NCBI GenBank assembly: GCA_016742175.1
Contig: JACVCH010000013.1
Location: 1-64,000, forward strand
DNA: 64,000 nt
Source of the DNA: Rhizobiaceae bacterium
GTDB lineage: Bacteria > Pseudomonadota > Alphaproteobacteria > Rhizobiales > Rhizobiaceae
Direction: 5' to 3'
The notes under the pieces are model-generated. The model saw only the letters and a list, made by a program, of their open reading frames with translations, made no database searches and had not been told where the DNA came from. Position 1 is the first letter of the stretch. The number at the start of each line of letters is the position of its first letter. Position numbers and translations under genes: made by a program. This document shows, piece by piece, positions 31,469 to 52,670 of the stretch.

Positions 31469-32464
31469 TCAGCAATAACGCTCCGGGCCGACCGACTGCG
31501 TTTCCGAATAGCGGTCGCCATGGGCGAAGCCGACGGGCAGGATCGCCTCGATGGCGTCGAGGTCGGCAGGTGAGAGCCCGACATCCGCGCCGGCGGCGTC
31601 TTCCTCCAGATGGGCCGCGCTGCGCGTTCCGGGTATCGGGATGACGTGGTCGCCGCGCGCCAGGAGCCAGGCGATGGCGAGAGTTGCCGGCGACAGGCCC
31701 CGCGCCTTCGCGAACGCGGCAAACTTCGCGATGTAGGCGCTGTTGTAGCGGTAATTCGTCTCGAGGAAGCGCGGGTTGAGGCGGCGGAAGTCGCCCTCGG
31801 CGAATTTCGCCGGATCGACGGGCGTCGAGGAAAAGACGCCGCGTCCGACCGGCGAGAAGGCGACGAGCGCCGTGCCGAAACGCTGCGTCGCCTGAAGAAG
31901 GCCAAGCTCGGGAAGCCGCGTCCACAGCGAATATTCGTTCTGGACGGCGGCGACGTGGTGGACGGCATTGGCACGTTCGAGCGTCGCGGGCGAAATTTCG
32001 GACAGGCCGATCGCGCCGATCTTGCCTTCGTCCTTCAACCGCACCAGCGTCTCCATCACGTCCTCGATCGGCCGCGATTGCTCGCGGCGATGGACGTAGA
32101 AGAGCGCGACGTGGTCGACGCCGAGGCGCTTCAGCGAGGCTTCGAGCGAGGATCGCAAATGCTCGGGCGAATTGTCGAAGCCGCGCACCGGCTTGTTTTT
32201 GATGCCGGCCTTGGTGGCGATGGTGAAGCGGTTCGGATGATCCTTGAGGAAGGCGCCGATGACCTCCTCGGCAACGCCTTCGCCGTAGATGTTGGCGGTG
32301 TCGAGATGGTCGACGCCGAGGTCGAGCGCGCGGGCGAGCGTGCGGTGGCTCTCTTCCATGTCGGTCGCGCCGTAGATGCCGCCGAAGCTCATGCAGCCAA
32401 GCCCGACCGCGCCGATTTCAGGACCGTTCCTGCCAAGTCTGCGTCTTTTCAAGGGACCACTCAT
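31469..32464 (-). CDS. Aldo/keto reductase (YghZ/AKR11-like)
   Basis: A 331-aa NADPH-dependent reductase with the AKR tetrad: Asp and Tyr in DTANIYGEG, Lys in ATKAGI, His in FYVHRRE. The sequence FSPVGRGVF and the C-terminal PIPGTRSAAHLEED nucleotide-binding part are typical. It reduces aldehydes or ketones of unknown identity. It lies on the same strand as the AKR-RidA fusion and Liv genes, 119 bp after the fusion gene; two palindromes in that gap suggest separate control. Confidence 0.92.
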   Translation of the reverse strand: MSGPLKRRRLGRNGPEIGAVGLGCMSFGGIYGATDMEESHRTLARALDLGVDHLDTANIYGEGVAEEVIGAFLKDHPNRFTIATKAGIKNKPVRGFDNSPEHLRSSLEASLKRLGVDHVALFYVHRREQSRPIEDVMETLVRLKDEGKIGAIGLSEISPATLERANAVHHVAAVQNEYSLWTRLPELGLLQATQRFGTALVAFSPVGRGVFSSTPVDPAKFAEGDFRRLNPRFLETNYRYNSAYIAKFAAFAKARGLSPATLAIAWLLARGDHVIPIPGTRSAAHLEEDAAGADVGLSPADLDAIEAILPVGFAHGDRYSETQSVGPERYC

Positions 32465-32524
32465 CGATTGGGGGAGGCGCCGCGAGCCGCAGCATCGGAA
32501 GGCCTGACCATACAACAGCAGGCG

Positions 32525-32570
32525 ACGATCGCAATTCGATCGTGGCTCCATCCGACCGGCAATTGCCGGT
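32525..32570. repeat. Two adjacent palindromes between aldo/keto reductase genes
   Basis: ACGATCG and CGATCGT (32525-32543) pair around 5 nt, and ACCGGCAATTGCCGGT (32555-32570) is a perfect 16-bp palindrome. They lie just after the stop of the AKR-RidA gene and before the next reductase gene. They may end transcription or bind a regulator of the downstream gene; no T run follows. Confidence 0.4.
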
Positions 32571-32583
32571 GGGCGCGCCGCTG

Positions 32584-34044
32584 CTATTCCTCGACGACGG
32601 CTTCGGCCTCGATCTCGACCTTGTAGTCGCCGACGAGATTGGCGGCGGCGAGGAGCGTGTTGGCGGGGCGCACCTCGCCGAAGAAGCGGCCATGAGCGCG
32701 CGAGACCGGCTCCCAGTCGCCGACATCGGCAAGGTAGACGCGGGTGCGCACCACGTCCTCCATCGTGCCGCCGAGCGCGCGGATGGAAGCGGCGATCTTG
32801 TCGAGGCAATAGGTCGCCTGCGCGCCGGCATCGTTCGGCGCGACGATGCGGTCGGAGCCGTGCGTCGCGGTGGTGCCCGAGACGAGTATCCGGTTGCCAG
32901 TCCTGACAGCGCGCGAATAGCCGGCCAAAGGCTCCCAGACGCTGCCGGACGAGACGCGAAGGCGGGATGGGCGGCCGGGCACCGGCTCGGCGACATAGAC
33001 GCTTGGGATCGCGTCCAGATGGTGGGAGAGGTCGCCCGACGCCGTCAGATAGGGCGCGCGGCGGTATTCGTCGCCGCAATCGCCGGGGATCGGCGTCGTC
33101 GCGGCGAATGCGGCGTGGAGGCGCTCGTGGTCCTCGGCGTCGAGCGCGAAGGCGAAGAGCCGCGCATTGTCGGCGCGATGTTCGCTTTCGCCGAGCCGCG
33201 CGCCGATGATGGCGCCGGCGACGCTGTCATGTTCCAACACCCAGCGCGTGGCGACGTTGGAGATCGAGACGCCATGCTTGCGGGCGACGTGTGCAGCGGC
33301 CGAGAGAATGCCCTGATAGGCGGTCCATCCGCCGGCGGCCTCAATGAAACGGCGATATTTCATGCCCGACCAGTTGGGTATCTGCGCCGGTTCGGGCTTG
33401 CCCAGCCAGCGCTCGGACAGGAACCCGCCGCACAACGTGCCATAGGCGAGGAGGCGCACGCCGGACCGTTCGCAAAGCTGCGACAGCGGCCCGGCCGCGC
33501 GCCGGTCAATGAGCGAGAACGACACCTGGTTGGAGACGATCGGGATGCCGTCGGCCAAGGCGACTGCCAGATGCGCGGCGTCGAAATTGGTCAGCCCGAT
33601 CTCGGCGATCAGGCCCTCATTGCGCAGCTTCGCCATTTCATGGAGCGCGTCGAGCCAGGCGGGATGCTCGAACGTCCACCAGTGGAACTGGAGGAGGTCG
33701 ACGCGCTCGACGCCGAGCCGGTCGAGCCGGTCCTGAACGCCCTTGCGCACAATTTCGGGCGTCATCGGGCCGGGTTCCGGGCACCATTTGGTGAAGGCGA
33801 GCGGGCGGCGCGCGCCGCGATGGCGCTTCAGCATCGCGCCGGCGATCAACTCGGCGCTGCCGTAGTGATCGGCCATGTCGAAGCTGGTGAAGCCGTCCTT
33901 CGCGTAGGCGTCAAGGTGGTCGGCCGCGCGCTCGATGTCGAGCGGCGCGCCGTCCTTTTCCATGTCCGCCACCTGCCAGAGCCCGGTGACGACGCGGGAG
34001 ATGTCGAGCCCGGGCGCAAGTTCGAATGTGTCGGGTCTTCTCAT
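32584..34044 (-). CDS. Aldo/keto reductase fused to a C-terminal RidA-like domain
   Basis: A 486-aa two-domain protein. Residues 1-340 are an aldo/keto reductase: DMADHYG (Asp, Tyr), FTKWCPE (Lys), LLQFHWWTFEHP (His), IIGARLGESEHRA (NADPH part). Residues about 365-486 are a RidA/YjgF fold (NRILVSGTTATHG, VVRTRVYLADVGDW, VEIEAEAVVEE). The arginine that binds the substrate carboxylate in classical RidA (PAR motif) is Asn here (RPANTL), so it probably is not a normal imine deaminase. It overlaps the LivM stop by 4 bp and is last in the livG-F-H-M unit, so it likely acts on the imported substrate. Confidence 0.9.
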   Translation of the reverse strand: MRRPDTFELAPGLDISRVVTGLWQVADMEKDGAPLDIERAADHLDAYAKDGFTSFDMADHYGSAELIAGAMLKRHRGARRPLAFTKWCPEPGPMTPEIVRKGVQDRLDRLGVERVDLLQFHWWTFEHPAWLDALHEMAKLRNEGLIAEIGLTNFDAAHLAVALADGIPIVSNQVSFSLIDRRAAGPLSQLCERSGVRLLAYGTLCGGFLSERWLGKPEPAQIPNWSGMKYRRFIEAAGGWTAYQGILSAAAHVARKHGVSISNVATRWVLEHDSVAGAIIGARLGESEHRADNARLFAFALDAEDHERLHAAFAATTPIPGDCGDEYRRAPYLTASGDLSHHLDAIPSVYVAEPVPGRPSRLRVSSGSVWEPLAGYSRAVRTGNRILVSGTTATHGSDRIVAPNDAGAQATYCLDKIAASIRALGGTMEDVVRTRVYLADVGDWEPVSRAHGRFFGEVRPANTLLAAANLVGDYKVEIEAEAVVEE

Positions 34045-35015
34045 GACGATACCTCAGGCTGTTTGCGGCCAAGCGCATGGCGCGAAAGCGTGCGCACTTC
34101 GCGCAGGATGCCCTGCGGGCGCACGAGAAGGATGGCGCAGAGCGCGACGCCGATGAGGACGAGCCGCAGCGAGGCTGCGCGCGCCTGCGAGCCGGCAGGG
34201 AACGTCGCTTCGATGAGCTGCCCCGACAGTGCCCACAGCGCCCAGACGAGAATGGCGCCGAGGATCGCGCCGCGATTGTTGCCCGAGCCGCCGACGATCA
34301 GCATCGCCCAGACCTGGAAGGTGATCATCGGCAGGTAGTTTTCCGGCGCGATGAAGCCGATGAAATGCGCCTGGATAGCGCCGGCCAGGCCCATGATCGC
34401 GCCGCCGAGCGTGAAGGCCTGGATGCGCAGCCATTTAGGGCTCTTGCCAAGTGCCTGCGCGGCGATCTCGTCCTCGCGGATCGCGCGCAGGACGCGGCCC
34501 CAGGGCGACCGGACGAGGCGTTCGAGGATCAGGTAGGTGACGAGCACGACGGCGGCGACGAGCGCCAGATTGGCGAGGCCGAAGGCCAGCGCATTGCCGG
34601 CCAGGTCGCCGAACGGGCGCGGGATGAAGGTGATGCCGAATGGCCCGCCGGTCAGCCCGACGAGATTGAGCGCGACGAGCTGCACGCTGACCGACACACC
34701 GAAAGTGGTGATGGCGAGATAGTCGGCGCGCAGGCGGATCGTCAGCCAGCCGACGAGGAAGGCGAGCAGCGCCGAAAGCGCCGCGCCGCCGACCCAGCCG
34801 ACGGCGATCGGCAGCCCGAAGCCGCCGATGCGGCCGGCCGCGTCCGGCGTCGTCAGGATGGCCGACGCATAAGCGCCGATGGCGACGAAGGCCGCGATGC
34901 CGACATTGAACAGCCCGGTCTGGCCCCACTGGACGTTCAAACCGAGGCAGATGATGGCGTAGGTCAGCGCCATCGTCAGGAAGAAGGCGCCATAGGCGAG
35001 GAATTCGGGGCTCAT
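34041..35015 (-). CDS. livM: Branched-chain amino acid type ABC transporter permease (LivM)
   Basis: A 324-aa inner-membrane permease of the HAAT family with about nine to ten membrane segments. The EAA-like loop reads RSPWGRVLRAIREDEIAAQALG, cut here to avoid length, and NVQWGQTGLFNVGIAAF is the LivM start hallmark. It pairs with LivH to form the channel. Its start overlaps livH and its stop overlaps the AKR-RidA gene by 4 bp each. Confidence 0.94.
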   Translation of the reverse strand: MSPEFLAYGAFFLTMALTYAIICLGLNVQWGQTGLFNVGIAAFVAIGAYASAILTTPDAAGRIGGFGLPIAVGWVGGAALSALLAFLVGWLTIRLRADYLAITTFGVSVSVQLVALNLVGLTGGPFGITFIPRPFGDLAGNALAFGLANLALVAAVVLVTYLILERLVRSPWGRVLRAIREDEIAAQALGKSPKWLRIQAFTLGGAIMGLAGAIQAHFIGFIAPENYLPMITFQVWAMLIVGGSGNNRGAILGAILVWALWALSGQLIEATFPAGSQARAASLRLVLIGVALCAILLVRPQGILREVRTLSRHALGRKQPEVSS

Positions 35016-35923
35016 GCCTGCCTCCCGAAGAGGCCCGTGGGGCGCACGAGCAGGATGGCGACGAGGATGGCGAAGGCGACTCCCGCCCGCCATTGCGCGC
35101 CGACGAACTGCACCGCGAGCGCCTCGCCGAGGCCGACGATCAGCCCGCCGACGATCGCGCCCGGAACCGAGCCGATGCCGCCGAGGATCGCAGCGGCAAA
35201 GAGCGGCAGCAGCAGGTCGAAGCCCATATAGGGCCGGATCTGGACGAGCAGCCCCGACATGACGCCGGCGGCGCAGGCAAGCGCCGCGCCGAGAATCCAG
35301 ACCGTGCGGATGACCTTGTCGACATCGACGCCGAAGAGGCCCGACAGGCTCGGATTCTCGCTGACGGCGCGCATGGCGCGCCCGGTCGGCGTGCGGGTGA
35401 GAAGGAGGTGGACGAAGACGACGAGCAAGGCGGTGAGACCGAGCGCGAAAAGCTGGTCGGGCGTCGCGCGCATGCCGCCGCCGAGCGGCATGGCGATCTG
35501 AAGCTCGCGCGTGAAGTAACCCGGCCGCGACGTGTAGATGAATTCGAGCAGGCTGCGCAGCGCCATCGACGCGCCGAAGCTCGCCATGACGATGATGATC
35601 ATCACCGATTGCCGCTTGCGGAAGATGCGGAACAGCACCGCATCGACCGCGAGCGCCAGAAGCGCGGTCAGTCCCATGGCGATGATCGTCGCGAGGACCA
35701 GCCCCCAGCCGAAGGAGAACGGCGCGATCGGTGCGCCGGCCCCGCCGATGACGGCGCCGATGAGCGCGGAGAGCGACATGGCGAAATAGGCGCCCCAGGC
35801 GATCATCTCGCCATGGGCGAAATTCGGAAAGCGCAGGATCGAATAGACGAGCGTCAGGCCGATGGCGCCGAGCCCGATCATCGAGCCCGCAATCAGCCCG
35901 TCGATGACGACCTGCGGGTTCAT
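35012..35923 (-). CDS. livH: Branched-chain amino acid type ABC transporter permease (LivH)
   Basis: A 303-aa permease of the LivH type: LIAGSMIGLGAIGLTLVY at the first helix, FAHGEMIAWGAYFA, and the loop GRAMRAVSENPSLSGLFGVD. It forms the importer with LivM, LivF and LivG. Start and stop overlap its neighbours by 4 bp, so all subunits are translated together. The actual substrate is unknown; HAAT members import amino acids, amides, urea and aromatic acids. Confidence 0.95.
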   Translation of the reverse strand: MNPQVVIDGLIAGSMIGLGAIGLTLVYSILRFPNFAHGEMIAWGAYFAMSLSALIGAVIGGAGAPIAPFSFGWGLVLATIIAMGLTALLALAVDAVLFRIFRKRQSVMIIIVMASFGASMALRSLLEFIYTSRPGYFTRELQIAMPLGGGMRATPDQLFALGLTALLVVFVHLLLTRTPTGRAMRAVSENPSLSGLFGVDVDKVIRTVWILGAALACAAGVMSGLLVQIRPYMGFDLLLPLFAAAILGGIGSVPGAIVGGLIVGLGEALAVQFVGAQWRAGVAFAILVAILLVRPTGLFGRQA

Positions 35924-36660
35924 GCCGCCCCCTCGCTTGCGTGGTCGGCGCCGAGGAACAGGGCGCCGAGATCGGGATGGCTGGACAGCGCCTCCGCCGA
36001 GGCGTCGAAGCGCAGGCGGCCGTCGACGAGCACGACGCCGCGCTCGACGATCCTCAGCGCCGCGCGCACGTTCTGCTCGACGAGGAGGATGGTGACGCCG
36101 GTGGCGCTGATCTCGCGCAGCGTCGAAAAGACGTCCGAGACGAGCTTGGGCGACAGGCCGGCCGACGGCTCGTCGAGCACGAGCACGGACGGCTCGAGCA
36201 GCAGCGCGCGGGCCACCGCAAGCATCTGGCGCTGGCCGCCGGACAGCGAGCCGGCGAGCCGGCCCGACTGACGGGCAAGATCGGGGAACATGTCGAGCAT
36301 GCGCCGGATCGCGGGCCCCTGCGCGCTCCGGACGAGCGGGGCCGCGGCAAGCTGCAAATTCTCGTGGATCGACAGGGTGGTGAAGATGTTCTCGGTCTGC
36401 GGCACGAAGGCCATGCCGCGCTTCAGGATGGCGTGGGGCTTCAGGCCGCCGATCGGCTCGCCGTTCAAGAACGCCTCGCCGCCGAAAACCGGCACGACGC
36501 CCGCAAGTGCCTTGACGAAGGTCGACTTGCCGGCACCGTTCGGCCCGAAGATCGCGACGAACTCGCCCTTGGCGAGCGTGAAATCGATGCCGTTGACGAT
36601 CGGCAGGTCACGCTCGTAGCCGGCGATGAACTGGCGCGTCTCGATGACGGGCGCGCTCAT
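35920..36660 (-). CDS. livF: ABC transporter ATP-binding protein (LivF)
   Basis: A 246-aa ATPase subunit: Walker A GPNGAGKS, the Q-loop VPQTENIF, signature LSGGQRQM, Walker B VLVLDEPSAG and switch HVEQN-like LLVEQNV. The LivF type is shown by FTTLSIHENL and the length. The ATG at 36660 overlaps the livG stop. It couples ATP hydrolysis to transport with LivG. Confidence 0.94.
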   Translation of the reverse strand: MSAPVIETRQFIAGYERDLPIVNGIDFTLAKGEFVAIFGPNGAGKSTFVKALAGVVPVFGGEAFLNGEPIGGLKPHAILKRGMAFVPQTENIFTTLSIHENLQLAAAPLVRSAQGPAIRRMLDMFPDLARQSGRLAGSLSGGQRQMLAVARALLLEPSVLVLDEPSAGLSPKLVSDVFSTLREISATGVTILLVEQNVRAALRIVERGVVLVDGRLRFDASAEALSSHPDLGALFLGADHASEGAA

Positions 36661-37490
36661 GCCGCGTCTCCGAGATAGGCGCCGACGACGCCGGCATCGC
36701 GGGCAATGTCGGCGGGCGCGCCTTCGGCTAGAAGCTTGCCCTGCGCCATCACGACGACACGGGCGCAAAGCCGCTGGATCATCTCCATGTTGTGCTCGAT
36801 CAAGAGGATCGTCATGCCGCGCCGGTTGATCTCGGCGATGCGGTCGATGATGAGGTCGAGCAGCGCCGGATTGACGCCGGCGGCGGGCTCGTCGAGCAGG
36901 ATCACCTGCGGATCGGTGATCATGACGCGCGCAAGCTCCAGAAGCTTGCGCTGCCCCCCCGACAGGACCCGCGCCGGCTCGTTCTCGAGCCGCGACAGCG
37001 ACAGGAAGTCGAGGATGGCGCGCGCCTTTTCGACGGATCGGCGCTCCTCCGCGGCGATGCGCGAGAAGGCGTAGAGATTGGCGAACATGCGCTCGCCGGT
37101 CTGGTTCTGGACGGCGGTGAGAACGTTTTCCAGAACCGTCATCTCGCCGAAGGGGCGCGGGATCTGGAACGTGCGCCCAAGCCCTGCGCGCAGGCGCCGC
37201 TCCGGACCGATCGCGGTCAGGTCCGTGCCGCCCAGGCGGATCGATCCGGCATCCGGCTTGAGCGATCCGGCAATGAGATTGAAGAGCGTCGTCTTGCCGG
37301 CGCCGTTCGGCCCGATCAACCCCGTCAGTTCGCCCCGCGCCAGCGCGATCGACATGCCGTCGACAGCGTTGAGGCCGGCGAAGCTTTTCGCCAGGTTGCG
37401 CACATCGAGGAGCGGCGCGTGGGTCGCAGGTTTCGTCACTGGATCAGCCGTTCCCCGTGCAGCTTCAGCCGCATCTTGATTTGTGATCAC
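36657..37490 (-). CDS. livG: ABC transporter ATP-binding protein (LivG)
   Basis: A 277-aa ATPase subunit with Walker A GPNGAGKT, the LivG hallmark GLGRTFQIPRPF, signature LSGGQRKLLELAR and Walker B VILLDEPAAG. It is the first gene of the leftward livG-F-H-M-AKR/RidA operon, divergent from gntR. The open frame starts with GTG at 37490, which sits inside a TGATCA operator-like repeat; a GTG at 37439 is an alternative start that would leave the operator free. Confidence 0.93.
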   Translation of the reverse strand: MITNQDAAEAARGTADPVTKPATHAPLLDVRNLAKSFAGLNAVDGMSIALARGELTGLIGPNGAGKTTLFNLIAGSLKPDAGSIRLGGTDLTAIGPERRLRAGLGRTFQIPRPFGEMTVLENVLTAVQNQTGERMFANLYAFSRIAAEERRSVEKARAILDFLSLSRLENEPARVLSGGQRKLLELARVMITDPQVILLDEPAAGVNPALLDLIIDRIAEINRRGMTILLIEHNMEMIQRLCARVVVMAQGKLLAEGAPADIARDAGVVGAYLGDAA

Positions 37491-37504
37491 ACTTTACATG
37501 ATCA
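37484..37504. promoter_or_regulatory. Putative GntR operator: two TGATCA repeats
   Basis: TGATCA occurs at 37484-37489 and 37499-37504, spaced 15 bp start to start, each extended to GTGATCAC and TGATCACA. They lie in the short gap between divergent livG and the GntR-family regulator gene. FCD-type GntR proteins bind such short palindromes, so both units are probably controlled from here. This is inference from position and symmetry. Confidence 0.5.
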
Positions 37505-37544
37505 CATCGGTTCCGTAGTGTAAACCCATCGAGGAGCGAACGGC

Positions 37545-38267
37545 ATGGGCGATCCGACGGGTTCACGAGATGGCAGCACCCTGGCGATTCTGGGCCCCGT
37601 GGCGCGTCAGACGGTGCAGGATCAGGTCTATGGCGAACTGCGCCGCTCGCTCATCCAGGGCGCGTTCGATGCCGGCGAAATCCTGCGCATCCGTGATCTC
37701 GCCGCCCGCATGTCGATCAGCACCATGCCGGTGCGCGAGGCGTTGGCGCGGCTGATTTCCGAACGCGCGCTCGAAGCCCTGCCCAACCGTTCCGTGCGCG
37801 TGCCGCTCATCCGCCGCGAGCGGCTGGAAGACCTGGCGCGTGCGCGTGCGCTGATCGAGGGCGAACTGACTGCGATGGCCCTGCCCCGGCTGACGCAAGG
37901 CGATCGCGAGGCGTTGTGGGACGCCACGCGCGCCTATGACAACCTCTCCGCCGGCCGGATCGACACGGCGCGCGAGGCGGCCGATCTCAACCACGCCTTC
38001 CATTTCCGCATCTACCGTGCCGCGGGGTCGCAGGTGCTGATCCCGGTCGTCGAAAGCCTGTGGATGCAGTCCGGGCCCTATATCCGCAAGGCGGCGGAAC
38101 TGTTCGAGCGCGAGCGCGACGCGCCGGCGACCAACCACCACCACAAGCTGCTCGACGCGATCGAGGCGGGCGACGTGGCGGCCGGGCGCTCCGCGCTCGT
38201 CGCCGACATCGGCCGCGCCTTCGACCTTTTGCGCCAGCGCCACGATTTCGACCGCGAGGCCGCATGA
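37545..38267 (+). CDS. GntR family transcriptional regulator, FCD type
   Basis: A 240-aa regulator with an N-terminal winged helix-turn-helix (about residues 25-90: LRRSLIQGAF, RIRDLAARMSISTMPVREALARL) and a C-terminal FCD ligand domain with metal-binding histidines (NHAFHFRIY, NHHHKLLDAI). FCD ligands are usually organic acids. It is divergent from livG and overlaps the next gene by 4 bp. It likely controls the Liv operon and its own unit. Confidence 0.94.
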   Translation: MGDPTGSRDGSTLAILGPVARQTVQDQVYGELRRSLIQGAFDAGEILRIRDLAARMSISTMPVREALARLISERALEALPNRSVRVPLIRRERLEDLARARALIEGELTAMALPRLTQGDREALWDATRAYDNLSAGRIDTAREAADLNHAFHFRIYRAAGSQVLIPVVESLWMQSGPYIRKAAELFERERDAPATNHHHKLLDAIEAGDVAAGRSALVADIGRAFDLLRQRHDFDREAA

Positions 38268-38617
38268 CGACGGGCGACGACAGCTTCGAGCTCTACGATC
38301 TGCGCGTCGAGATCGTCGCGCCGGAAGGGGCGAAGATCTATTGCGGGACGCCGGGCGATCATTTCGAACTGCGCGGCGAGATGCTGCACATGCCGCCCGG
38401 CCAGGGCTTCTCGATCTACTCGCTATCGGCCGTGCTGCCGCTTCTTCCCGCCAAGCAGCGGGTCACGCATGCGAACGACTGGATGACGAGCGACGCCGAA
38501 GTCGCCTGTCCCGACCCGAACTGCTCGTCGCGGCTGAGGATCACGCGGCTCGGCAAGCGGCGTTTCAGCCACGCCGAGACGACCGCCGTGCCGCTGCCCG
38601 CCAGCCAAAAGGATTGA
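38264..38617 (+). CDS. TIGR04076 family protein
   Basis: A 117-aa protein of the small TIGR04076 family (function unknown). Typical parts are the beta-strand start LYDLRVEIV, GTPGDHFEL, FSIYSLSAVLPLLPAKQR, and the CPDPNCSSRLRI block with two cysteines. The first Cys region (KIYCGTPGD) replaces the usual CP-G motif. The start overlaps gntR by 4 bp; the aldo/keto reductase gene follows after 1 bp, so gntR-TIGR04076-AKR-livK form one unit. Confidence 0.75.
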   Translation: MTTGDDSFELYDLRVEIVAPEGAKIYCGTPGDHFELRGEMLHMPPGQGFSIYSLSAVLPLLPAKQRVTHANDWMTSDAEVACPDPNCSSRLRITRLGKRRFSHAETTAVPLPASQKD

Positions 38618-38618
38618 C

Positions 38619-39668
38619 ATGGAACGCGCTTTGCTTGCCCCCGGCTACGAGATTTCCCGCGTCATCCGCGGCGGCTGGCAGCTTGCCGGCGGGCATGGCG
38701 CCGTCGACCGCGCGGCGGCGGTCGAAGATCTGATCGCAACGGCGGAGGCCGGCATCACCACTTTCGACTGCGCCGACATCTACACCGGCGTCGAGGAAAT
38801 CATCGGCGATTTCCGCGCCGAATACGGCCGCCGTCACGGCGCCGAGGCACTGTCGGCCATCCGCGTCCACACCAAGTTTGTGCCGGACCTTGCGGTGCTG
38901 CCGACCATCTCGAAGGCCTATGTCGAAAAGGTCATCGACACCTCGCGCGCACGGCTCGGCCTCGACCGGCTCGACCTCGTGCAGTTCCACTGGTGGGACT
39001 ACGAGACGGGCGGCTATCTGCAGACCGCGCTCTGGCTGGAGGAACTTCGTTGGGCCGGCAAGATCGAGCGCGTGTCGGCGACGAATTTCGATGCCGCCCA
39101 TGTGGAAGCGATGGTTGCAGAAGGCGTGCCGGTCACCAGCGTCCAGGTGCAGTATTCGCTGATCGACGACCGTCCCTCGCGGCGCATGGCGACGGCCGCC
39201 GAGGCGCTCGGCTTCAAGCTCCTGTGCTACGGCACGGTCGCCGGCGGCTTCCTGTCGGATGCCTGGCTGGGCGTGCCCGAGCCTGGCGAGCCGCTCGAAA
39301 ACCGCTCGCTGACGAAATACAAGCTGATGATAGACGATGCGGGCGGCTGGGAGTGGTTCCAGTCGCTCCTCGCCGCGCTGCGCGCCATCGCCGACCGCCA
39401 CGGCACCGACATTGCCACAGTCGCCAGCCGCGCCGTGCTCGACTTTCCGGCCGTGGCCGGCGTCATCGTCGGCGCGCGCAACCGGGCGCACCTCAGCGCC
39501 AATCTCGCGATCGGCGACTTGCGGCTCGAAGCGCAGGACCACGCGCTTCTCGCGCCGGTGCAGGCGGCGCGCCGGCCGATCGAGGGCGAGGTCTACGAAC
39601 TCGAGCGCGACCGCACGGGCCGGCACGGCTCGATCATGAAATACAATCTCAACGCCGAACCGGCCTGA
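38619..39668 (+). CDS. Aldo/keto reductase
   Basis: A 349-aa reductase whose motifs (DCADIYTG, HTKFVPD, LVQFHWWDYE, GVIVGARNRAH) closely mirror the AKR part of the fusion protein at 32584-34044. The shared FHWW and the similar CYGTVAGGFLS / AYGTLCGGFLS segments show that they are paralogs. The Asp-Tyr-Lys-His tetrad is intact. It sits between the TIGR04076 gene and livK on the arm divergent from the Liv operon, so both arms carry one copy. Confidence 0.92.
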   Translation: MERALLAPGYEISRVIRGGWQLAGGHGAVDRAAAVEDLIATAEAGITTFDCADIYTGVEEIIGDFRAEYGRRHGAEALSAIRVHTKFVPDLAVLPTISKAYVEKVIDTSRARLGLDRLDLVQFHWWDYETGGYLQTALWLEELRWAGKIERVSATNFDAAHVEAMVAEGVPVTSVQVQYSLIDDRPSRRMATAAEALGFKLLCYGTVAGGFLSDAWLGVPEPGEPLENRSLTKYKLMIDDAGGWEWFQSLLAALRAIADRHGTDIATVASRAVLDFPAVAGVIVGARNRAHLSANLAIGDLRLEAQDHALLAPVQAARRPIEGEVYELERDRTGRHGSIMKYNLNAEPA

Positions 39669-39727
39669 GAGACGAAAAAGGCAACCGGCGCCTGACCAGT
39701 GATGCCGGCAACAAAGGGGAAAGGCAG

Positions 39728-40993
39728 ATGAGGAACATTCTGAAGGTTTCGGCGCTGGCGCTTCTCGGCAGCGCCGTCGCGCTTCCGGCCCTGGCGCAGG
39801 ACGATGACTGCGAGATCAAGGTCGGCGTCGTCATGGAACTGACGGGCCCGGCCGGCCAGTACGGCCAGGCCGGCGCGAAGTCGGTCGAGATGGCGTTCCG
39901 CGACATCAACGAGGCGGGCGGCGCTGCGGGCTGCGACCTGACGATGGACGTGCGCGATTCCCAGAGCCAAGGCAACGTCGCGGTCGACCAGGCGACGCAG
40001 CTCGTCAACGTCGAGAACGTGCCCGTGATCATCGGCGGCATCATCTCCTCCGTCTCGATCCCGATCCTGACCTCGGTGACGGCGTCGGCCGGCGTCGTGC
40101 AGGTCTCGCCCGCCTCCTCCTCGCCGACGCTGACCACCATGTCAGAGGAAGGCAAGACCAACGGCTATTTCTTCCGCACCATCACGTCCGACGCGCTGCA
40201 GGGCACGGCGGCGGCGAAATACGCGATCGACCAGGGCCTGAAGAAGCTCGCCATCATCCACGTCAACAACGATTTCGGCGTGAACATGGTCAACGAGTTC
40301 CGCGCTTCCTTCGAGGCGCTGGGCGGCGAGATCACCTCGACGACGCCCTACAACGAGCGCCAGCCGAACTATTCGGCCGAAGTGACGACCGGCATGGGCG
40401 GCGAGCCCGAGGCGCTCTACCTCGTCTCCTACCCGACCGACGGCGCGACCATCGCGCGCGCCTGGATTTCGCAGGGCGGGCCGGCGAAGTTCCTGCTCAA
40501 TGACGGCATGAACTCGACCGAGTTCATCGAGGCCGTCGGCGCGCAATATCTGAACGACGCCTACGGCACGTCTTCCGGCACGGTCGAGACCGCGTCGACC
40601 AAGTATTTCTACGACAATTACGGCGAGATCTCCGGCGGCATCGCGCCCGACGCGCCGGCCGCCGACCGCTCCTACGACGCCGGCGCCATCGTCGGCCTCG
40701 CCATCGCCAAGGCCGGTTCCGGCGAGGCGGATGCGATCCGCGACGCCATGCGCGAGGTCGTCGACCCGGAGGGCGAGCCGATCTATGCCGGCCCGGAGGA
40801 ATTCAAGAAGGCGCTGGCACTGATCGCCGAGGACAAGCCGATCAAGTATGAAGGCGTCATCGGCCCGGTCGCCTTCGACGAGAATGGCGACATCACCGGC
40901 CCGTTCCGCCTCTGGCGCATCCAGGAAGGCGAGGTCACCACGACCGGCGAGATTTCGGCCGAGGAAGTCGGCGAGATCAAGGGCGGTCTCTGA
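39728..40993 (+). CDS. ABC transporter substrate-binding protein, LivK type
   Basis: A 421-aa periplasmic binding protein (type I fold, Peripla_BP_6). Signal peptide residues 1-23 (ends ALPALAQ). Then KVGVVMELTGPAGQYG, GGIISSVSI, VQVSPASSSPTLT and NNDFGVNM. Such proteins feed HAAT importers, here surely the LivGFHM set on the other arm. The ligand is not predictable; the absence of a classic leucine-binding Tyr/Ser pattern could not be judged. The start follows AAGGGGAAAGGCAG. A strong terminator follows the gene. Confidence 0.94.
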   Translation: MRNILKVSALALLGSAVALPALAQDDDCEIKVGVVMELTGPAGQYGQAGAKSVEMAFRDINEAGGAAGCDLTMDVRDSQSQGNVAVDQATQLVNVENVPVIIGGIISSVSIPILTSVTASAGVVQVSPASSSPTLTTMSEEGKTNGYFFRTITSDALQGTAAAKYAIDQGLKKLAIIHVNNDFGVNMVNEFRASFEALGGEITSTTPYNERQPNYSAEVTTGMGGEPEALYLVSYPTDGATIARAWISQGGPAKFLLNDGMNSTEFIEAVGAQYLNDAYGTSSGTVETASTKYFYDNYGEISGGIAPDAPAADRSYDAGAIVGLAIAKAGSGEADAIRDAMREVVDPEGEPIYAGPEEFKKALALIAEDKPIKYEGVIGPVAFDENGDITGPFRLWRIQEGEVTTTGEISAEEVGEIKGGL

Positions 40994-40999
40994 AGGCCG

Positions 41000-41037
41000 T
41001 GCCGACGGCGTCCCCGGGGCGCCGTCGGCAATTTATC
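41000..41037. terminator. Intrinsic terminator between converging livK and mmgE/prpD
   Basis: TGCCGACGGCG (41000-41010) and CGCCGTCGGCA (41020-41030) form a perfect 11-bp stem, followed on the plus strand by ATTTAT. It ends the livK unit and may also stop the leftward acd operon read from the other side. Confidence 0.8.
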
Positions 41038-42510
41038 CTAGCGGGACTTCCAGTCGAGGAGGTCGTAGAGCGCGCCGACGTCGTCCGCCGCGTCCAGCGA
41101 CCAGACCGCATCGAACACGGCCTGAATGCGCGCATCGTCCAGAAGACCGTCGGCGCAATCGCGGAACTTGCCTTCGAGTTCGCCGTCCGAAAGCGGATTG
41201 TGCGGGCTGCCGCGATAGTTTTCGTCGGCCCAGCGCTCGATCGTGCGGCCGTCCCTGGTCGTGACTTCGATCCGCGAGCGGATGCGGTCCCAGCCCATGT
41301 CCTCGATCGACTGGTCGAACGCGGTCTCGATGCGCGCCTGCATGTCCTGCGAGGCGCTGGAGGCGACGAACTCGTCGGTGAATTCGGCCTTGCCGGCACG
41401 GCCCCTGAGGATGATCGCGGTCAGGAGGAAGGCGAAGGAGAACTTGCCTTCGAGTTCCGTGCGCGCGATGCGGAAGCGGATCGGGCCGAGGACGTTGCTG
41501 CCGGCGCTGAGCTTGACCGCGGCGATGTCGTCGGCCGTCAGGCCGTTCTCGCGCATCAGGAACAACAGCGCATCCATGCTCGGATGGGTCAGCACGCCCG
41601 ACGGGTAGGGCTTGATGGACACGCCGGGGCTTCGCATCGTGTGCGGCTTGCCGAAGCGGTCCCTGACGAGAGCCGGCTCGCCGCCCGGCCCGGCAATGGC
41701 GAGATAGCCCCAGCGCCCGTCGAGCGCCTCGGTATTGGCGGAAAAACCGTGGCGCACGAGAAGCGCCGCCGTGACGCCGTTCTCGGCCGCGCGGCCGACA
41801 TGCATCGGCTTGGTCATGGTGCCGAAGCCCGCACGGATGCCGCCCGCCATCGAGGCGGCAAGGCCGATCGCCTTGGCGACGCCCGTCTCGTCGAGCGCGA
41901 GCACCTTGGCGGCGGCGGCGGCAGCGGCAAAGGTTCCGATGGTGCCCGACGTATGGAAGCCGCGCATGTAATGGTCGGGATTGATCGCCTCGGCGACCTT
42001 GCAGCCGACTTCGAAACCGGCGGCGAAGGCGGTCAGAAACGCCTTGCCGTCGACCGGGCGTCCGGTCTCGCTCGCGACCAGGTCGGCCATCGTCAGCGCT
42101 GCGACCAGCGGCGGCATGGTGGGGTGCATCAGGAGGCCGTACGGGCGGCCCGGCCCCTCGGCGAGTTGCGTGTCGTCCCAATCCATCGCGTGGCCGGCGG
42201 TGGCGCTCCAGAGCGCTGAAAGATGCGCCGGCACCTTCCTGGCGGCGTCGCCGACGAGCCGTGCCTGCGGCGTGCCGCCGAGGCTGTCGATATAGGCGCT
42301 GAGCGGGGCCATGCCCGGCTGTTCGGACCCGGCAAGCGCGACGGCAAGCCCGTCGAGCACGCAGCGCTTGGCAAGATGCAGGGTTTCGGCGTCGAGGTCC
42401 GAGAACTGCAACTCCGCGACGAATTTCGACGCCGCCGCCGTCAACCCGCTGAGGGCGGCATGCGGGTCGCTCGCCGGCTTCTGGCCGAGGGGTGTCTGGT
42501 GCTGGTTCAT
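41038..42510 (-). CDS. MmgE/PrpD family protein (first of two)
   Basis: A 490-aa protein of the family that holds 2-methylcitrate dehydratase and cis-aconitate decarboxylase. Motifs: GHAMDWDDTQL, HPTMPPLVAAL, GFHTSGTIGTFAAA, GTMTKPMHVGRAAENG and KPYPSG. It likely dehydrates, decarboxylates or isomerises a di- or tricarboxylic acid. It is last in the leftward operon acd-caiB-isochorismatase-prpD, overlapping the hydrolase gene by 4 bp. A paralog begins the rightward unit at 46638. Confidence 0.92.
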   Translation of the reverse strand: MNQHQTPLGQKPASDPHAALSGLTAAASKFVAELQFSDLDAETLHLAKRCVLDGLAVALAGSEQPGMAPLSAYIDSLGGTPQARLVGDAARKVPAHLSALWSATAGHAMDWDDTQLAEGPGRPYGLLMHPTMPPLVAALTMADLVASETGRPVDGKAFLTAFAAGFEVGCKVAEAINPDHYMRGFHTSGTIGTFAAAAAAAKVLALDETGVAKAIGLAASMAGGIRAGFGTMTKPMHVGRAAENGVTAALLVRHGFSANTEALDGRWGYLAIAGPGGEPALVRDRFGKPHTMRSPGVSIKPYPSGVLTHPSMDALLFLMRENGLTADDIAAVKLSAGSNVLGPIRFRIARTELEGKFSFAFLLTAIILRGRAGKAEFTDEFVASSASQDMQARIETAFDQSIEDMGWDRIRSRIEVTTRDGRTIERWADENYRGSPHNPLSDGELEGKFRDCADGLLDDARIQAVFDAVWSLDAADDVGALYDLLDWKSR

Positions 42511-43172
42511 CGGGTTTCTCCTGGTTGCGGCGCCCGGTTCCAGCCGGACAGGATCTCATCGACGGTCGGCGTCAGGCCGAAGCGATGGCGGATGTTGGCG
42601 AGCGAGCCTTCGTGCAGATCCCGGCTCCAGGACCCCGTCGCATCGGGCGGCACGCAGACATAGTAGTCGAGCTCGAAGGCGGCGCGGGACGTCGTCTCGA
42701 CGCAGACATTGGTGGAGACGCCGGTCGCGATGACACTGCGGATGCCGCGCGCGCGAAGGAGAAGGTCCATGTCGGTGCCCGAAAAGGCGCTGTAGCGGCG
42801 CTTGCGCACTACGAGTTCGCCGGCGCGCGGCGACAATTCGTCGACGAAGGCCTCGCCCTCCGTCCCGGTGATGCAAAGATGCTCCGACGAAAAGGTCGAG
42901 CGGCGACGCTGGGCGAGCCACGGCCCCGAATCGCTTCCGTGATCGGGCGCCGTGCTGAACCCCACATGCGCGACGAGCATTTTCGCCTTTCGGGCGGCAT
43001 CGAGAAGACGGGCGATATGGGGAATGACGCCCTGCGCCATCGAGAGGTCGCGCCCGGCCTGTTCGGCACCGAAGCCCGGCGTGCAGAAATCCTTCTGCAT
43101 GTCGATGATAAGGAGCGCGGTGTGCCGCGGATCGACGGTCTCGGCGAGTTCGGTCAGCATCGGCGGTTCCAT
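42507..43172 (-). CDS. Isochorismatase-like cysteine hydrolase
   Basis: A 221-aa amidase-like hydrolase with the Asp-Lys-Cys triad: Asp in LLIIDMQKDFC, Lys in VVRKRRYSAF, Cys in GVSTNVCVETT. The family hydrolyses amides or carbamates (nicotinamide, N-carbamoylsarcosine, maleamate, ureidoacrylate). Between a CoA transferase and MmgE/PrpD gene, a job in freeing a carboxylate from an amide is plausible. The ATG at 43172 is used; one at 43160 is possible. 4-bp overlap with mmgE/prpD. Confidence 0.92.
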   Translation of the reverse strand: MEPPMLTELAETVDPRHTALLIIDMQKDFCTPGFGAEQAGRDLSMAQGVIPHIARLLDAARKAKMLVAHVGFSTAPDHGSDSGPWLAQRRRSTFSSEHLCITGTEGEAFVDELSPRAGELVVRKRRYSAFSGTDMDLLLRARGIRSVIATGVSTNVCVETTSRAAFELDYYVCVPPDATGSWSRDLHEGSLANIRHRFGLTPTVDEILSGWNRAPQPGETR

Positions 43173-43200
43173 CGATCGGCGGTTCCTTGGAGTTGAAAGG

Positions 43201-44352
43201 TCAGGCGGCATCCGTGTCCGACTTGGCGAATTCGGCGCGAATGGCGGCGTCATGTTCGCCGATCGCGGGAACGGACTGGTAACCGCGCGTTTCCCCGCGC
43301 CGGCGCGCCGGCGGCGCGGGCATGCTGACCGGGCCGTTGGGCGTATCGATCTCGACGCGGCGCAGATGCGGATGCGCGGCAAGGTCGAGGGCGGAATTGA
43401 CCATGGCCCAGGCGATGCCGGCCTTTTCCAGCCTTGCGATGATGCCTTCGTGGTCTTCGCCCGCGAAGACCACGCCGATGATCGCGTCGAGGGCGGCGCG
43501 ATTGCGCATCCGCGCGGCCGGATCGGCAAATTGCGGATCGGACGCAAGATCGACCTCGCCCAGCACCTCACGGCAGAAGGCGCGCCATTCGCGCTCGTTC
43601 TGGATCGAGATCAGGACGTCCTTGGCGTCGGCGCAGCGGAAGACACCATAGGGCGCGATGGACGGGTGACGCAGGCCGAGACGCGGCGGATTGCGGCCCG
43701 AGCCTTCGGCCTGCAAAAGCGGCACGGTCATCCAGTCGGCCATGGCGTCGAACATGGCGACGTCGATCGTCGCGCCCTTTCCGGTCATCCGGCGCTCGAT
43801 CACGGCCTCGAGGATCGCCGCATAGGCATACATGCCGGTGCCGACATCGCAGACGGAAACGCCGACGCGGGCCGCTTCCTCCGGCGTTCCCGTCACCGAG
43901 GCGAGCCCGCTTTCGGCCTGGACGAGCAGATCGTAGGCCTTCTTGTCCTTGTAGGGGCCCTCCTGGCCGAAGCCGGAAATGTTGAGCTGGATCAGCCGCG
44001 GATTGAGCGCCGCCAGTTCCTTCGCCCCGAGCCCCAGCCGTTCGACGGCGCCGGGCGCGAGGTTCTGGACGAAGATGTCGGCCTCGGCCAGCATGGATTT
44101 GAGGAGGGCGAAGTCGGCCTTCGCCTTGATGTCGAGGACGACCGATTCCTTGCCGCGGTTCAGCCACACGAAATAGGACGACTGGCCTTTGGCGAAGCCG
44201 TCATAATTGCGCGCGAAATCGCCTTCCTCGCGTTCGATCTTGATCACCCGCGCGCCGGCGTCGGCCAGCTTGCAGGTGCAGTAGGGTGCCGCGACGGCCT
44301 GTTCCAGCGAGATCACGAGCAGGCCGGCGAGAGGGCCGGAAGGAGAAGCCAT
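43201..44352 (-). CDS. CaiB/BaiF family CoA transferase (class III)
   Basis: A 383-aa class III CoA transferase that would load CoA from a donor thioester onto a carboxylic acid. N-terminal LLVISLEQAVAAPYC, KIEREEGDFARN, LNRGKESVVLDIK, and the catalytic Asp in VCDVGTGMYA (about residue 165) are all present. A long open frame continues upstream into the acyl-CoA dehydrogenase gene but the ATG at 44352 begins the family homology. It is 11 bp after that dehydrogenase, so the two steps are linked: CoA activation, then oxidation. Confidence 0.93.
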   Translation of the reverse strand: MASPSGPLAGLLVISLEQAVAAPYCTCKLADAGARVIKIEREEGDFARNYDGFAKGQSSYFVWLNRGKESVVLDIKAKADFALLKSMLAEADIFVQNLAPGAVERLGLGAKELAALNPRLIQLNISGFGQEGPYKDKKAYDLLVQAESGLASVTGTPEEAARVGVSVCDVGTGMYAYAAILEAVIERRMTGKGATIDVAMFDAMADWMTVPLLQAEGSGRNPPRLGLRHPSIAPYGVFRCADAKDVLISIQNEREWRAFCREVLGEVDLASDPQFADPAARMRNRAALDAIIGVVFAGEDHEGIIARLEKAGIAWAMVNSALDLAAHPHLRRVEIDTPNGPVSMPAPPARRRGETRGYQSVPAIGEHDAAIRAEFAKSDTDAA

Positions 44353-44363
44353 GGGCGCGCCTC

Positions 44364-45548
44364 TCAATAGGAGCGCGGCATGCCAAGCACATGCTCGCCG
44401 ACATAGGACAGGATGAGATTGGTCGAGATCGGCGCCACTTGGTAGAGGCGCGTCTCGCGGAACTTGCGCTCGACGTCGTACTCCTCGGCGAAGCCGAACC
44501 CGCCATGGGTCTGCAGGCAGGTGTCGGCCGCATGCCAGGACGCCTCGGATGCCAAAAGCTTCGCCATGTTGGCCTCCGGCCCGCAGGGCATGCCGTGATC
44601 GAACAGATGCGCCGCGCGGTAGACCATGAGCTTGGCGGCCTGCGCCTCGGCATACGCACGCGAGATCGGAAACTGAACGCCCTGGTTGGCGCCGATCGGC
44701 CGGCCGAACACGACGCGCTCCTTTGCGTAGTTCGTCGACGTGCGGGTGAACCATTCGGCGTCGCCGATGCACTCGGCCGCGATCAGGATGCGCTCGGCAT
44801 TCATGCCGTCGAGGACGTATTTGAAGCCCCTGCCCTCCTCGCCGATCAGGCTGTCGGCGGGAATTTCGAGATTGTCGAAGAAGATCTCGGTCGTGGCGTG
44901 GTTGAGCATCGCGCGGATGGGCTTGATCGTCAGGCCGTTGCCGAGCGCCTTCTTCATGTCGACGAGGAAGACGGAGAGGCCGTCGCTCTTGCGCGCGACC
45001 TTGTCCTTGGGCGTGGTGCGCGCAAGCAGGATCATCAGGTCGGAATGCTCGGCCCGCGAGGTCCACACCTTCTGCCCGTTGACGACATAGGTGTCGCCGC
45101 GCTTCTCGGCGAAGGTGGTGATCGAGGTCGTGTCGGTGCCGGCCGTCGGCTCGGTCACGCCGAACGCCTGCAGGCGGGTCTCGCCCGTCGCGATCCGGGG
45201 CAGCCAGTGGGTCTTCTGCGCCTCGCTGCCATGCCGCAGGAGCGTGCCCATCGTATACATCTGCGCGTGCAGCGCGGCCGCGTTGCAGCCTTGCGCGTGC
45301 ACTTCCTCGAGGATGTTGGCCGCCACAGTGATGCCTTGCCCGGAGCCGCCATACGCTTCCGGTATGAGCACGCCGAGGAAGCCGGCCTCGGTCATCGCCT
45401 CGACGAAGGCCGTCGGATAGGCCTTATCCCGATCGAGCTCGCGCCAATATTCGCCGGGGAAACGGGCGCAGAGCGCAGCCACGGACTGCCTGATCTGCCG
45501 AAGCATCTCGACTTCAGCAACGTCCACACCTTGATCCATACGCGACAT
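44364..45548 (-). CDS. Acyl-CoA dehydrogenase family protein
   Basis: A 394-aa FAD enzyme with N-terminal helices, the FAD segment VTEPTAGTDTTSI, and VWTSRAEHSD, and the C-terminal THGGFGFAEEYDVERKFRE. It would put a 2,3-double bond into a CoA thioester and pass electrons to ETF (etfBA lie at 60883-62584). Where many family members have the catalytic Glu (YEGTS), this one has YQVAPIST, so the base may sit elsewhere as in isovaleryl-CoA dehydrogenase. The ATG at 45548 follows AAGGTGAGGAAC. First gene of the leftward unit. Confidence 0.93.
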   Translation of the reverse strand: MSRMDQGVDVAEVEMLRQIRQSVAALCARFPGEYWRELDRDKAYPTAFVEAMTEAGFLGVLIPEAYGGSGQGITVAANILEEVHAQGCNAAALHAQMYTMGTLLRHGSEAQKTHWLPRIATGETRLQAFGVTEPTAGTDTTSITTFAEKRGDTYVVNGQKVWTSRAEHSDLMILLARTTPKDKVARKSDGLSVFLVDMKKALGNGLTIKPIRAMLNHATTEIFFDNLEIPADSLIGEEGRGFKYVLDGMNAERILIAAECIGDAEWFTRTSTNYAKERVVFGRPIGANQGVQFPISRAYAEAQAAKLMVYRAAHLFDHGMPCGPEANMAKLLASEASWHAADTCLQTHGGFGFAEEYDVERKFRETRLYQVAPISTNLILSYVGEHVLGMPRSY

Positions 45549-45616
45549 GTTCCTCACCTTGCAGTTCCGCGCGACCATATATCGGACGCGCTTCTTCGAC
45601 GCCTCTCCCGGCAGGC

Positions 45617-45638
45617 TATCAGGTATGCCAGTTTGATA
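45617..45638. promoter_or_regulatory. LysR-type operator in the acd / lysR gap
   Basis: TATCA (45617-45621), 12 bp, TGATA (45634-45638) is an inverted repeat of the T-N11-A class bound by LysR regulators. It lies between the divergent acyl-CoA dehydrogenase and LysR genes, so one regulator can control both units. It overlaps the most upstream in-frame ATG of lysR, which argues against that start. Confidence 0.6.
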
Positions 45639-45667
45639 TGGAAAATTGCGATATGCAGGAGCCGATG

Positions 45668-46600
45668 ATGGAACTGCGCCAGTTGACCTATTTTATCCGG
45701 ATCGTCGAGTCGGGGAGCTTCTCCCGGGCCGCGATCGAGTTGCAGGTTGCGCAGCCGGCGCTGTCGCGGCAGATCAAGCGCCTCGAGGAGGAACTGGGAA
45801 CGCCGCTCCTCTATCGCAACGGGCGCGGCGTCTCCCTGACCCGCGCGGGCGAGATCCTGATGGCTTCGAGCAGCGAGGTCATCGGCAAGCTGGAAGCGAC
45901 GGCGCGCGAGATCGCCGAGGCCGGCGACCGGCTGTCGGGGTCCGCGGTCGTCGGACTGCCGCCGACCGTCGGGCGCGTGCTCGCCATACCGCTCGCCGCG
46001 CTCTTTCGCGATCATTTCCCCGCGGTGAAACTGCAGATCGTCGAGGGGTTCAGCGGCAACGTGCTCGAATGGCTGTCGACGGGCCGCGTCGACGTCGGCG
46101 TGCTCTACAGCGATCCGGGCGCCAATCTGATGGTCGCCGAGCCGCTGGTCGAGGAGGAACTGCTGCTGATCGGCCCGCCCGCAGCCGGCGCGGACACCCG
46201 CGCGATGCCGCCCGCCGGACTGCCGATCCCCTTCCGCACGATGGGCGAACTGCCGCTGATCCTGCCGAGCCGCCCGCACGGGCTGCGCCGCCTGATCGAC
46301 GCGATGGCGATCGGCATCGGCCAGCCGCTCAACGTCGTCATGGAGGTCGACAGCCTGCACACGATGCTGGAGTTGGTGCGCTCGCGCCTCGGCTACACCG
46401 TGCTGCCGCTCGCCAGCATTATGCGCGAGCCGGGCGAGGCATTCTCGACATGGACGATCAGCGAGCCGAACTGCACGCGCACGCTCTACGTCGCGACCGC
46501 GGCGCAGCGCTCGACGGGGATCGCCAAGCGCGAACTCGCCCGCATCGTGCGCCGCCAGATCATGGAAATTGCCACACAGGGGCTGTGGCGGGCGCTGTGA
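45668..46600 (+). CDS. LysR family transcriptional regulator
   Basis: A 310-aa regulator with an N-terminal helix-turn-helix (MELRQLTYFIRIVESGSF, LSRQIKRLEEELGTPLLYR) and a C-terminal effector domain of the periplasmic-binding fold, of the NAC/CbL-like subgroup (LPPTVGRVLAIPL, VEGFSGNVLEWL). The start at 45668 has AGGAG 6 bp upstream; ATGs at 45638 and 45665 are alternatives. It likely activates both divergent units in answer to the pathway substrate or an intermediate. Confidence 0.94.
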   Translation: MELRQLTYFIRIVESGSFSRAAIELQVAQPALSRQIKRLEEELGTPLLYRNGRGVSLTRAGEILMASSSEVIGKLEATAREIAEAGDRLSGSAVVGLPPTVGRVLAIPLAALFRDHFPAVKLQIVEGFSGNVLEWLSTGRVDVGVLYSDPGANLMVAEPLVEEELLLIGPPAAGADTRAMPPAGLPIPFRTMGELPLILPSRPHGLRRLIDAMAIGIGQPLNVVMEVDSLHTMLELVRSRLGYTVLPLASIMREPGEAFSTWTISEPNCTRTLYVATAAQRSTGIAKRELARIVRRQIMEIATQGLWRAL

Positions 46601-46637
46601 GCGTCGCCGCATGCCGAACGGGGGGAGAAAACCGCGC

Positions 46638-48038: not shown

Positions 48039-48171
48039 CAGCCGCGTCGCCATACCCGGAAGGCATAGCTGTTAGGAATAGGAGGCGACTGTCGGCATGG
48101 CCCTCGCTTGATACTGTGATCTCAATCGCTGGCTTTTTGCCGACGCCATACCGGATCGAGGATCAATCACC

Positions 48172-49017: not shown

Positions 49018-49073
49018 ATCACCAAAAGCAAGAAGGCCGGCAAACGGCCGCCAACCTCAAGAGGAGAACGACA

Positions 49074-50090: not shown

Positions 50091-50163
50091 TCTGCCGGAT
50101 GCTGTCGGCGCCCGGAGGCAAGGGCGCCGGCATCTCGACACCTGGAACTGCAAGAGGTGGACA

Positions 50164-52666: not shown

Positions 52667-52670
52667 CAGC

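Follow-up and report, generated by a model that had tools for sequence, protein, structure and literature searches.

The window, by which the whole analysed stretch of 64,000 nucleotides of Rhizobiaceae DNA is meant, contains at 32584..34044 on the minus strand a single open reading frame (ORF) for a protein of 486 amino acids, translated without an internal stop, in which an aldo/keto reductase (AKR) is joined to a Rid domain. The AKR covers residues 18-311 (Pfam Aldo_ket_red, PF00248; E 9.9e-53, 179.5 bits vs cut-off 24) and is followed by a conserved C-terminal AKR tail (residues 319-343), a variable linker (344-362) and the Rid domain (371-484; Pfam Ribonuc_L-PSP, PF01042; E 2.1e-22, 79.8 bits vs cut-off 27.3). 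An AKR and a RidA fold in one protein had been described in an earlier note on this DNA, and both Pfam domains are indeed found above their curated cut-offs; as they are also full length, a chance pairing of domains was rejected. The score against TIGR00004, the archetypal RidA deaminase, is 59.1 bits, below the subfamily cut-off of 106.25. The AlphaFold model of the fusion has a mean pLDDT of 86.9 and a pTM of 0.90, with residues 329-334 below 50; the rows shown in the PDB fold comparison of the whole model are AKRs or AKR-like proteins, and the Rid domain was identified by sequence, not by this comparison.

The fusion belongs to a larger conserved cassette, which extends to 40993. Its start overlaps by 4 bp (ATGA, 34041-34044), with a GAGG motif upstream, the stop of a LivM-type permease gene (34041..35015, start chosen by hand inside ORF 34041-35093), which is preceded on the same minus strand by genes for a LivH-type permease (35012..35923), a LivF-type ATPase (35920..36660, within ORF 35920-36768) and a LivG-type ATPase (36657..37490). 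Divergently from this LivG-LivF-LivH-LivM-fusion operon, on the plus strand, lie a GntR/FCD regulator (37545..38267), a TIGR04076 family protein (38264..38617; 49.7 bits vs cut-off 33), a second AKR that has no Rid domain (AKRc, 38619..39668; 42% identity with the fused AKR over residues 9-328) and a LivK-type substrate-binding protein (39728..40993). Since the LivM and LivH model scores (143.2 vs 366 and 131.1 vs 379) are below the equivalog/subfamily cut-offs, the importer is considered Liv-type and not a leucine/isoleucine/valine transporter proper; the nearest solved relatives of LivK include amino-acid-binding proteins, which does not name its ligand. The TIGR04076 protein is modelled with a pTM of 0.79 and has no PDB fold match at E <= 0.001 and no PDB sequence match at E <= 10.

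Most probably the cassette came into this genome on an island of about 21 kb (32463..53554), the left edge of which falls between about 32457 and 32500 and the right edge of which is the 3' end of a tRNA-Leu(CAA) gene (53555-53639, minus strand). This is concluded because the flanks are shared with congeners and only 52 bases separate the two edges in one of them, G399, from which the island is absent; loss from the congeners is a less simple account. Three congeners (G398, G399, G401) share the window from 27000 to about 32450-32500 at 86-88% identity, G400 shares the same left flank at 76-78%, though broken into pieces, and the sequence from 53555 onward is likewise found in pieces in G398 and G399; between the edges G398 has a different stretch of about 4.8 kb, and the fusion is found in none of the four. 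No integrase was noticed among the ORFs read, no clear attachment repeat was found at the edges (the longest exact repeats are 10 bp if direct and 12 bp if inverted), and GC content (0.673 vs 0.665 and 0.654) is no marker of the island. It also holds two MmgE/PrpD genes, an acyl-CoA dehydrogenase, an NMT1-type binding protein, an SDR, a polysaccharide-deacetylase-family protein (52671-53549) with a PuuE match below cut-off, and a RutB-like isochorismatase (42507-43160). The stretches covered of the 80 fusion loci retained from 212 relatives contain no relative of this isochorismatase at E <= 1e-10, and L120, a fusion locus outside these 80, contains a 33% relative.

Distribution of the fusion and of its cassette

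Relatives were searched in bacterial and archaeal genomes, and the best 80 of 212 were retained for locus counts. A single uninterrupted fused ORF of 481-509 residues is present in all of these 80 best loci and likewise in 16/16 further loci on plasmids and in other genomes, so the fusion is not an assembly error; the same observation speaks against the missed stop near residue 345 that the earlier note had wished to see checked. With the interdomain stretch being 60 residues long in 93/97 sequences as well, an assembly or frameshift artefact merging two genes can practically be dismissed. The search for the same domain fusion and its neighbours, suggested at the same time, found it widely and within a conserved cassette: it is present in many soil and marine bacteria, adjoining a nutrient importer. 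It was detected in 8/289 genomes of a sample of the window's class (the window's own genome included) and in 7/398 genomes of a phylum sample, all 7 belonging to that class; G000 and G099 are common to both samples. One locus recorded as Mycobacterium sp. KBS0706 (L008) has a typical alphaproteobacterial cassette with 77% identity, which makes the organism label look doubtful.

Some of the ORFs in these loci were delimited by a crude picking procedure, and several neighbour genes were named by reading the sequence. All nine cassette genes occur in 61 of the 80 best loci, and AKRc and TIGR04076 occur together in 69, all with LivG, LivF and LivM; among the other 11, four (L051, L055, L056, L066) cannot tell, because no more than about 1.0 kb is available upstream of the match. 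The coupling to a Liv-type importer, noted earlier for the window with its 4-bp overlap, proved to be a widely conserved arrangement, since LivM (>55% identity) lies directly upstream of the fusion on the same strand in 67 of the 80 best loci, and the distance from the LivM stop to the fusion start, picked nearest to the window's start, is -17 to +22 bases in 65 measurable loci. Loci such as those of Marivita and Shimia retain AKRc, TIGR04076 and the fusion with a more diverged importer (about 40-50%) in another arrangement, and a DUF4440-like gene is found in 9 of the 80 best loci. In the class sample TIGR04076 was present in 16 genomes and together with the fusion in 7 (P 2.9e-9, rising to 4.5e-8 when the window's genome is left out, by a statistic that ignores shared ancestry), the two being on different contigs in G460 and G484; in the phylum sample it was present in 13 genomes, including all 7 with the fusion. 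In 13 of 44 AKRc rows (L065, L071, L072, L078, L090, L118, L119, L148, L151, L154, L155, L157, L165) Phe, Tyr or Cys takes the place of the catalytic His, Asp-Tyr-Lys being kept.

Outside the Liv cassette the fusion has varied neighbours. It lies 38 bases downstream of gcvPA-gcvPB on the same strand in L019, divergent from gcvPA-gcvPB in L209, after an LLM-type monooxygenase gene with a 4-bp overlap in L206, and divergent from an amidohydrolase gene in L207, where peptide-type importer genes were recognised by reading. On an Antarctobacter plasmid it stands among polar amino-acid and Pot-type importers, with a deacetylase (weak PuuE match), an N-formylglutamate amidohydrolase, an isochorismatase and a gamma-glutamylputrescine synthetase-like protein (below cut-off). 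Several of these neighbours belong by type to nitrogen-compound catabolism, and none of them names a substrate. A fixed link of the fusion with GcvPA/GcvPB was rejected and serves as no more than a lead: a GcvPB like that of L019 adjoins the fusion in L019 and L209, and it also adjoins a TIGR04076-AKR pair on a haloarchaeal plasmid; this GcvPA/GcvPB subfamily travels with an NAD-kinase-family gene on 6/6 plasmids read (L243-L248) and with an SDR named as such on 5/6. The Antarctobacter plasmid is one of the six, with the fusion elsewhere on it, and among three of 270 genomes with a GcvPB of >70% identity only G596 has the fusion.

The TIGR04076-AKRc pair with a Liv-type importer is also found without the fusion. 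In seven such loci (L122, L123, L153, L164, L167, L168, L214) a DUF3830 gene adjoins TIGR04076 and a DAO-type flavoenzyme is present in the stretch covered in 7/7, and DUF3830 was found in 0/80 of the best fusion loci; a search of open-licence PubMed Central returned no paper on DUF3830. The best match of the L164 flavoenzyme is L-pipecolate oxidase AmaA (E 2.4e-88, below the curated cut-off), and 4 of the 80 best loci have a weak relative of it (28-29%) close to the fusion. Four further cassettes (L151, L154, L155, L157) contain a further AKR, genes of the HyuA/HyuB type and a stand-alone Rid having Asn in place of the carboxylate-binding Arg (Asn-Rid). HyuA and HyuB were both matched in L151, L155 and L157, and in L154 HyuA was recognised by reading; a DAO-type gene is present in two of the four (L151, L154). 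The best matches of the L157 HyuA and the L151 HyuB are the caprolactamase proteins CapA and CapB, respectively, both below cut-off. The tetrad of the further AKR is Glu-Tyr-Arg-Gln in 4/4 (L151:5555-6595, L154:12267-13292, L155:11287-12303, L157:7703-8719), and the two of these proteins tested are AKRs by Pfam, above cut-off. The stand-alone-Rid cassettes of L155 and L157 were also seen to include a kynureninase-like gene (238.2 bits vs cut-off 246.4 in L157), an arylmalonate-decarboxylase-like gene and an esterase-like gene (L155). Other arrangements are an Asn-Rid-HyuA-HyuB group with no TIGR04076 in the stretch (L196, L197), the haloarchaeal TIGR04076-AKR pair without a Liv importer, and TIGR04076 without AKRc (L152/L216).

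Conserved sites and Rid lineages

The intact Asp-Tyr-Lys-His of the AKR, claimed at the outset, corresponds to Asp56, Tyr61, Lys86 and His121, which together with Asn462 and Glu477 are identical in 97/97 fused proteins and in L206, L207 and L209 (the partial L141 sequence contributes no residue at the Asn462 position to the tally). After a 90% filter 67 sequences remained, in which the tetrad, Asn462, Glu477 and also Gly390 and Thr391 are unchanged in 67/67; the tetrad and the Asn462/Glu477 pair look constrained, because they are invariant although pairwise identity falls to 54%. The most conserved stretch of the protein is residues 319-343 (mean 0.15 bits vs 0.87 for either domain), while the linker 344-362 is variable (1.75 bits). 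By its position this stretch is the C-terminal AKR tail, and it may close over the substrate.

In the alignment to E. coli YjgF (1qu9) Tyr17 pairs with Tyr376, Arg105 with Asn462 and Glu120 with Glu477, and position 376 is Tyr in 82, Phe in 14 and His in 1 of 97 sequences. The YjgF residue numbers used here (Tyr17, Arg105, Glu120) agree with PMC4433059. The proposed change of the carboxylate-binding Arg to Asn is thereby borne out in 97/97 sequences: none has the Arg105 of the Arg-bearing imine-hydrolysing Rids (RidA, Rid1-Rid3), and all combine Asn462 with a retained Glu477, as is described for the Arg-less Rid4-Rid7 (no Arg105, Glu120 kept; PMC4433059). In one fusion locus a second, stand-alone Rid (L062_9471) has Met at the Asn462 position.

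In the Rid tree, built with 35 of the fused Rids available, these group in a single clade (support 90/96), and the fused AKRs form one clade of 27 rows in the AKR tree, a quick tree with four long outgroup rows. Among 35 stand-alone Rids of the tree set the Arg105 position is Asn in 12 and otherwise Thr (5), Ala (5), Ser (4), Cys (3), Leu (2) or Gly, Asp, Gln and Arg (1 each). The tree neighbours of the fused Rids are stand-alone Rids of one family (f13) from the same class, with Ser, Ala or Gly, and the Asn-bearing stand-alone Rids are separated from the fused ones by a strongly supported branch (99/96). A tree without the trait's own columns requires four changes of state, and a single clade for all Asn rows was rejected (p-AU 0.0007), the group having been named after the tree was seen and the label 'asnRid' assigned after the residue was seen. 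Asn recurs in two Rid lineages. Both meet in L120, a fusion locus that also has, adjoining LivK, a stand-alone Asn-Rid from the second lineage (1111-1476). Asn is not tied to this cassette, because in six loci (L194, L195, L198, L199, L200, L201), which supply 6/12 of the stand-alone Asn rows of the tree, the stretches read contain an Asn-Rid and none of TIGR04076, AKRc and HyuA/B.

Proposed function and comparison with known systems

We tentatively propose, at somewhat less than an even chance, that the fusion is a bifunctional two-step catabolic enzyme, in which the Rid domain would open a carboxylate-free or amide-bearing imine or enamine and the AKR would reduce the carbonyl; the existence of the fusion, its conserved sites, its single clade and its cassette are observed, and its chemistry (a catalytic Rid domain included), step order and substrate class are what we infer. 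A small nitrogen-containing compound would enter via the Liv-type importer, and the imine or enamine might arise by a host enzyme, by AKRc/TIGR04076, or spontaneously. It would then be bound by the Rid domain, where Asn462, in place of the Arg that grips a carboxylate, may select ligands having no free alpha-carboxylate (amide, lactam, or decarboxylated imine); there Glu477 would activate water to hydrolyse the imine, and the resulting aldehyde or ketone could be reduced to an alcohol with NAD(P)H by the fused AKR. Since Arg105 is needed in RidA/RutC and absent from Rid4-Rid7, Asn462 is proposed to suit a carboxylate-free ligand. The two-step reading draws on the site conservation, the single clade, the TIGR04076 association, the flavoenzyme and CapA/CapB-like genes of the sister cassettes, and the occurrence of Asn in two lineages. 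Against it stand the lack of an obvious imine-forming enzyme in the window's cassette, the presence of the flavoenzyme relative beside the fusion in only 4 of the 80 best loci, and the six Asn-Rid loci without the cassette genes.

A further objection to the two-step reading comes from Rids already tested. Arg105 is required for imine hydrolysis in RidA and RutC (PMC4433059, PMC8113886, PMC7221256), RutC R104A is inactive (PMC8113886), and neither Salmonella Rid7 (PMC4433059) nor Yersinia pestis Y3550 (PMC7221256) has deaminase activity. Because these tested Arg-less Rids were inactive, a strong rival is a non-catalytic Rid domain, serving as a trimerising scaffold or ligand-sensing module of what would be an oligomeric carbonyl reductase. 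We consider it somewhat unlikely: it agrees with the typically trimeric state of Rid proteins (PMC4433059) and with the AKR tail being the most conserved part, whereas the invariance of Asn462, Glu477, Gly390 and Thr391 goes beyond apparent scaffold needs and Asn recurs in a second Rid lineage, partly in related cassettes.

It is unlikely, in our estimate, that the chemistry is of another kind, in which the Rid domain would tautomerise or hydrolyse an intermediate lacking nitrogen (enol, lactone) and the AKR would carry out a redox step, possibly an oxidation, either earlier or later. The replaced His of AKRc and the Glu-Tyr-Arg-Gln tetrad of the further AKR do make the redox chemistry in these cassettes unusual, and the variety of the non-Liv loci (LLM monooxygenase, amidohydrolase, GcvPA/GcvPB) would suit such a role; several neighbours are nevertheless of nitrogen-metabolism types, namely amine oxidase-like, lactamase-like, amidohydrolase and PLP decarboxylase.

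To return to the two-step enzyme, the idea of the earlier note that a carbonyl and a reactive nitrogen intermediate are handled in one protein gains from the cassette context, with its amine-oxidase-like and lactamase-like sister genes, while nothing was found for its reduce-first order. A wider and unlikely extension would make the Asn-Rids a separate functional class, arisen at least twice, of deaminases/hydrolases for imines or enamines with an amide, a lactam or no carboxylate, many of which would serve mobile importer cassettes built on the undescribed TIGR04076-AKR pair, the product here passing directly to the fused reductase. The role of an Arg-less Rid becomes testable in this system, because its junction with an AKR having a complete active site is a built-in optical assay (NAD(P)H, 340 nm) and because the importer and the regulator narrow the substrate search. 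The cassette family moreover links TIGR04076, DUF3830, DUF4440, AKR, Rid, flavin oxidase and HyuA/B, several of them of unknown function.

Two known families appear to be joined in an undescribed way inside a widespread cassette. In open-licence PubMed Central no description of an AKR-Rid fusion and no paper on RidA with hydantoinase was found, the papers returned for RidA together with an aldo-keto reductase and an ABC transporter were unrelated, and caprolactamase with RidA came up only in passing, in a paper whose main text does not contain RidA. Niehaus 2015 (PMC4433059) reports having looked for Rid fusions, and the only ones named in the available text are repeats of Rid domains. The fusion model matches the AKRs 4xk2 (Polaromonas), 1lqa (E. 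coli Tas), 8hwn (DepB) and 7utf (deoxynivalenol-pathway) at Z of about 30-31 and rmsd of 2.2-2.8 over 280-298 residues, with 24-27% identity in the alignments; as these chains are 317-346 residues long, they have no Rid-sized extension. The best PDB sequence match is 3i7t (putative uncharacterized protein; E 1.3e-20), which has the Rid fold and in which Arg105 is also missing. The same holds for Arg-less Rids of the Rid5/Rid6 kind, such as Y3550, from which the fusion differs by its AKR and by Asn in 97/97 sequences. Rid4-Rid7 are described as lacking Arg105 and as having completely unknown activities in 2015 (PMC4433059), and Rid5-Rid6 functions were still called uncharacterized in 2020 (PMC7221256).

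The closest functional precedent is E. coli uracil catabolism, where, as PMC8113886 describes, the Rid deaminase RutC deaminates 3-aminoacrylate and the carbonyl reductase RutE/YdfG then reduces the semialdehyde, in a catabolic operon with an importer. Direct membership of the Rut pathway was rejected, the score against the RutC model (TIGR03610) being 47.4 bits, below the equivalog cut-off of 169.1. RutC keeps Arg, whereas the fusion has Asn462; RutC and its reductase are separate proteins, and the window's cassette showed no RutA-like gene. The Rut order, to deaminate and then to reduce, is opposite to that of the earlier note, and by analogy the reductase step of the fusion is proposed to follow its Rid step as RutE/YdfG follows RutC.
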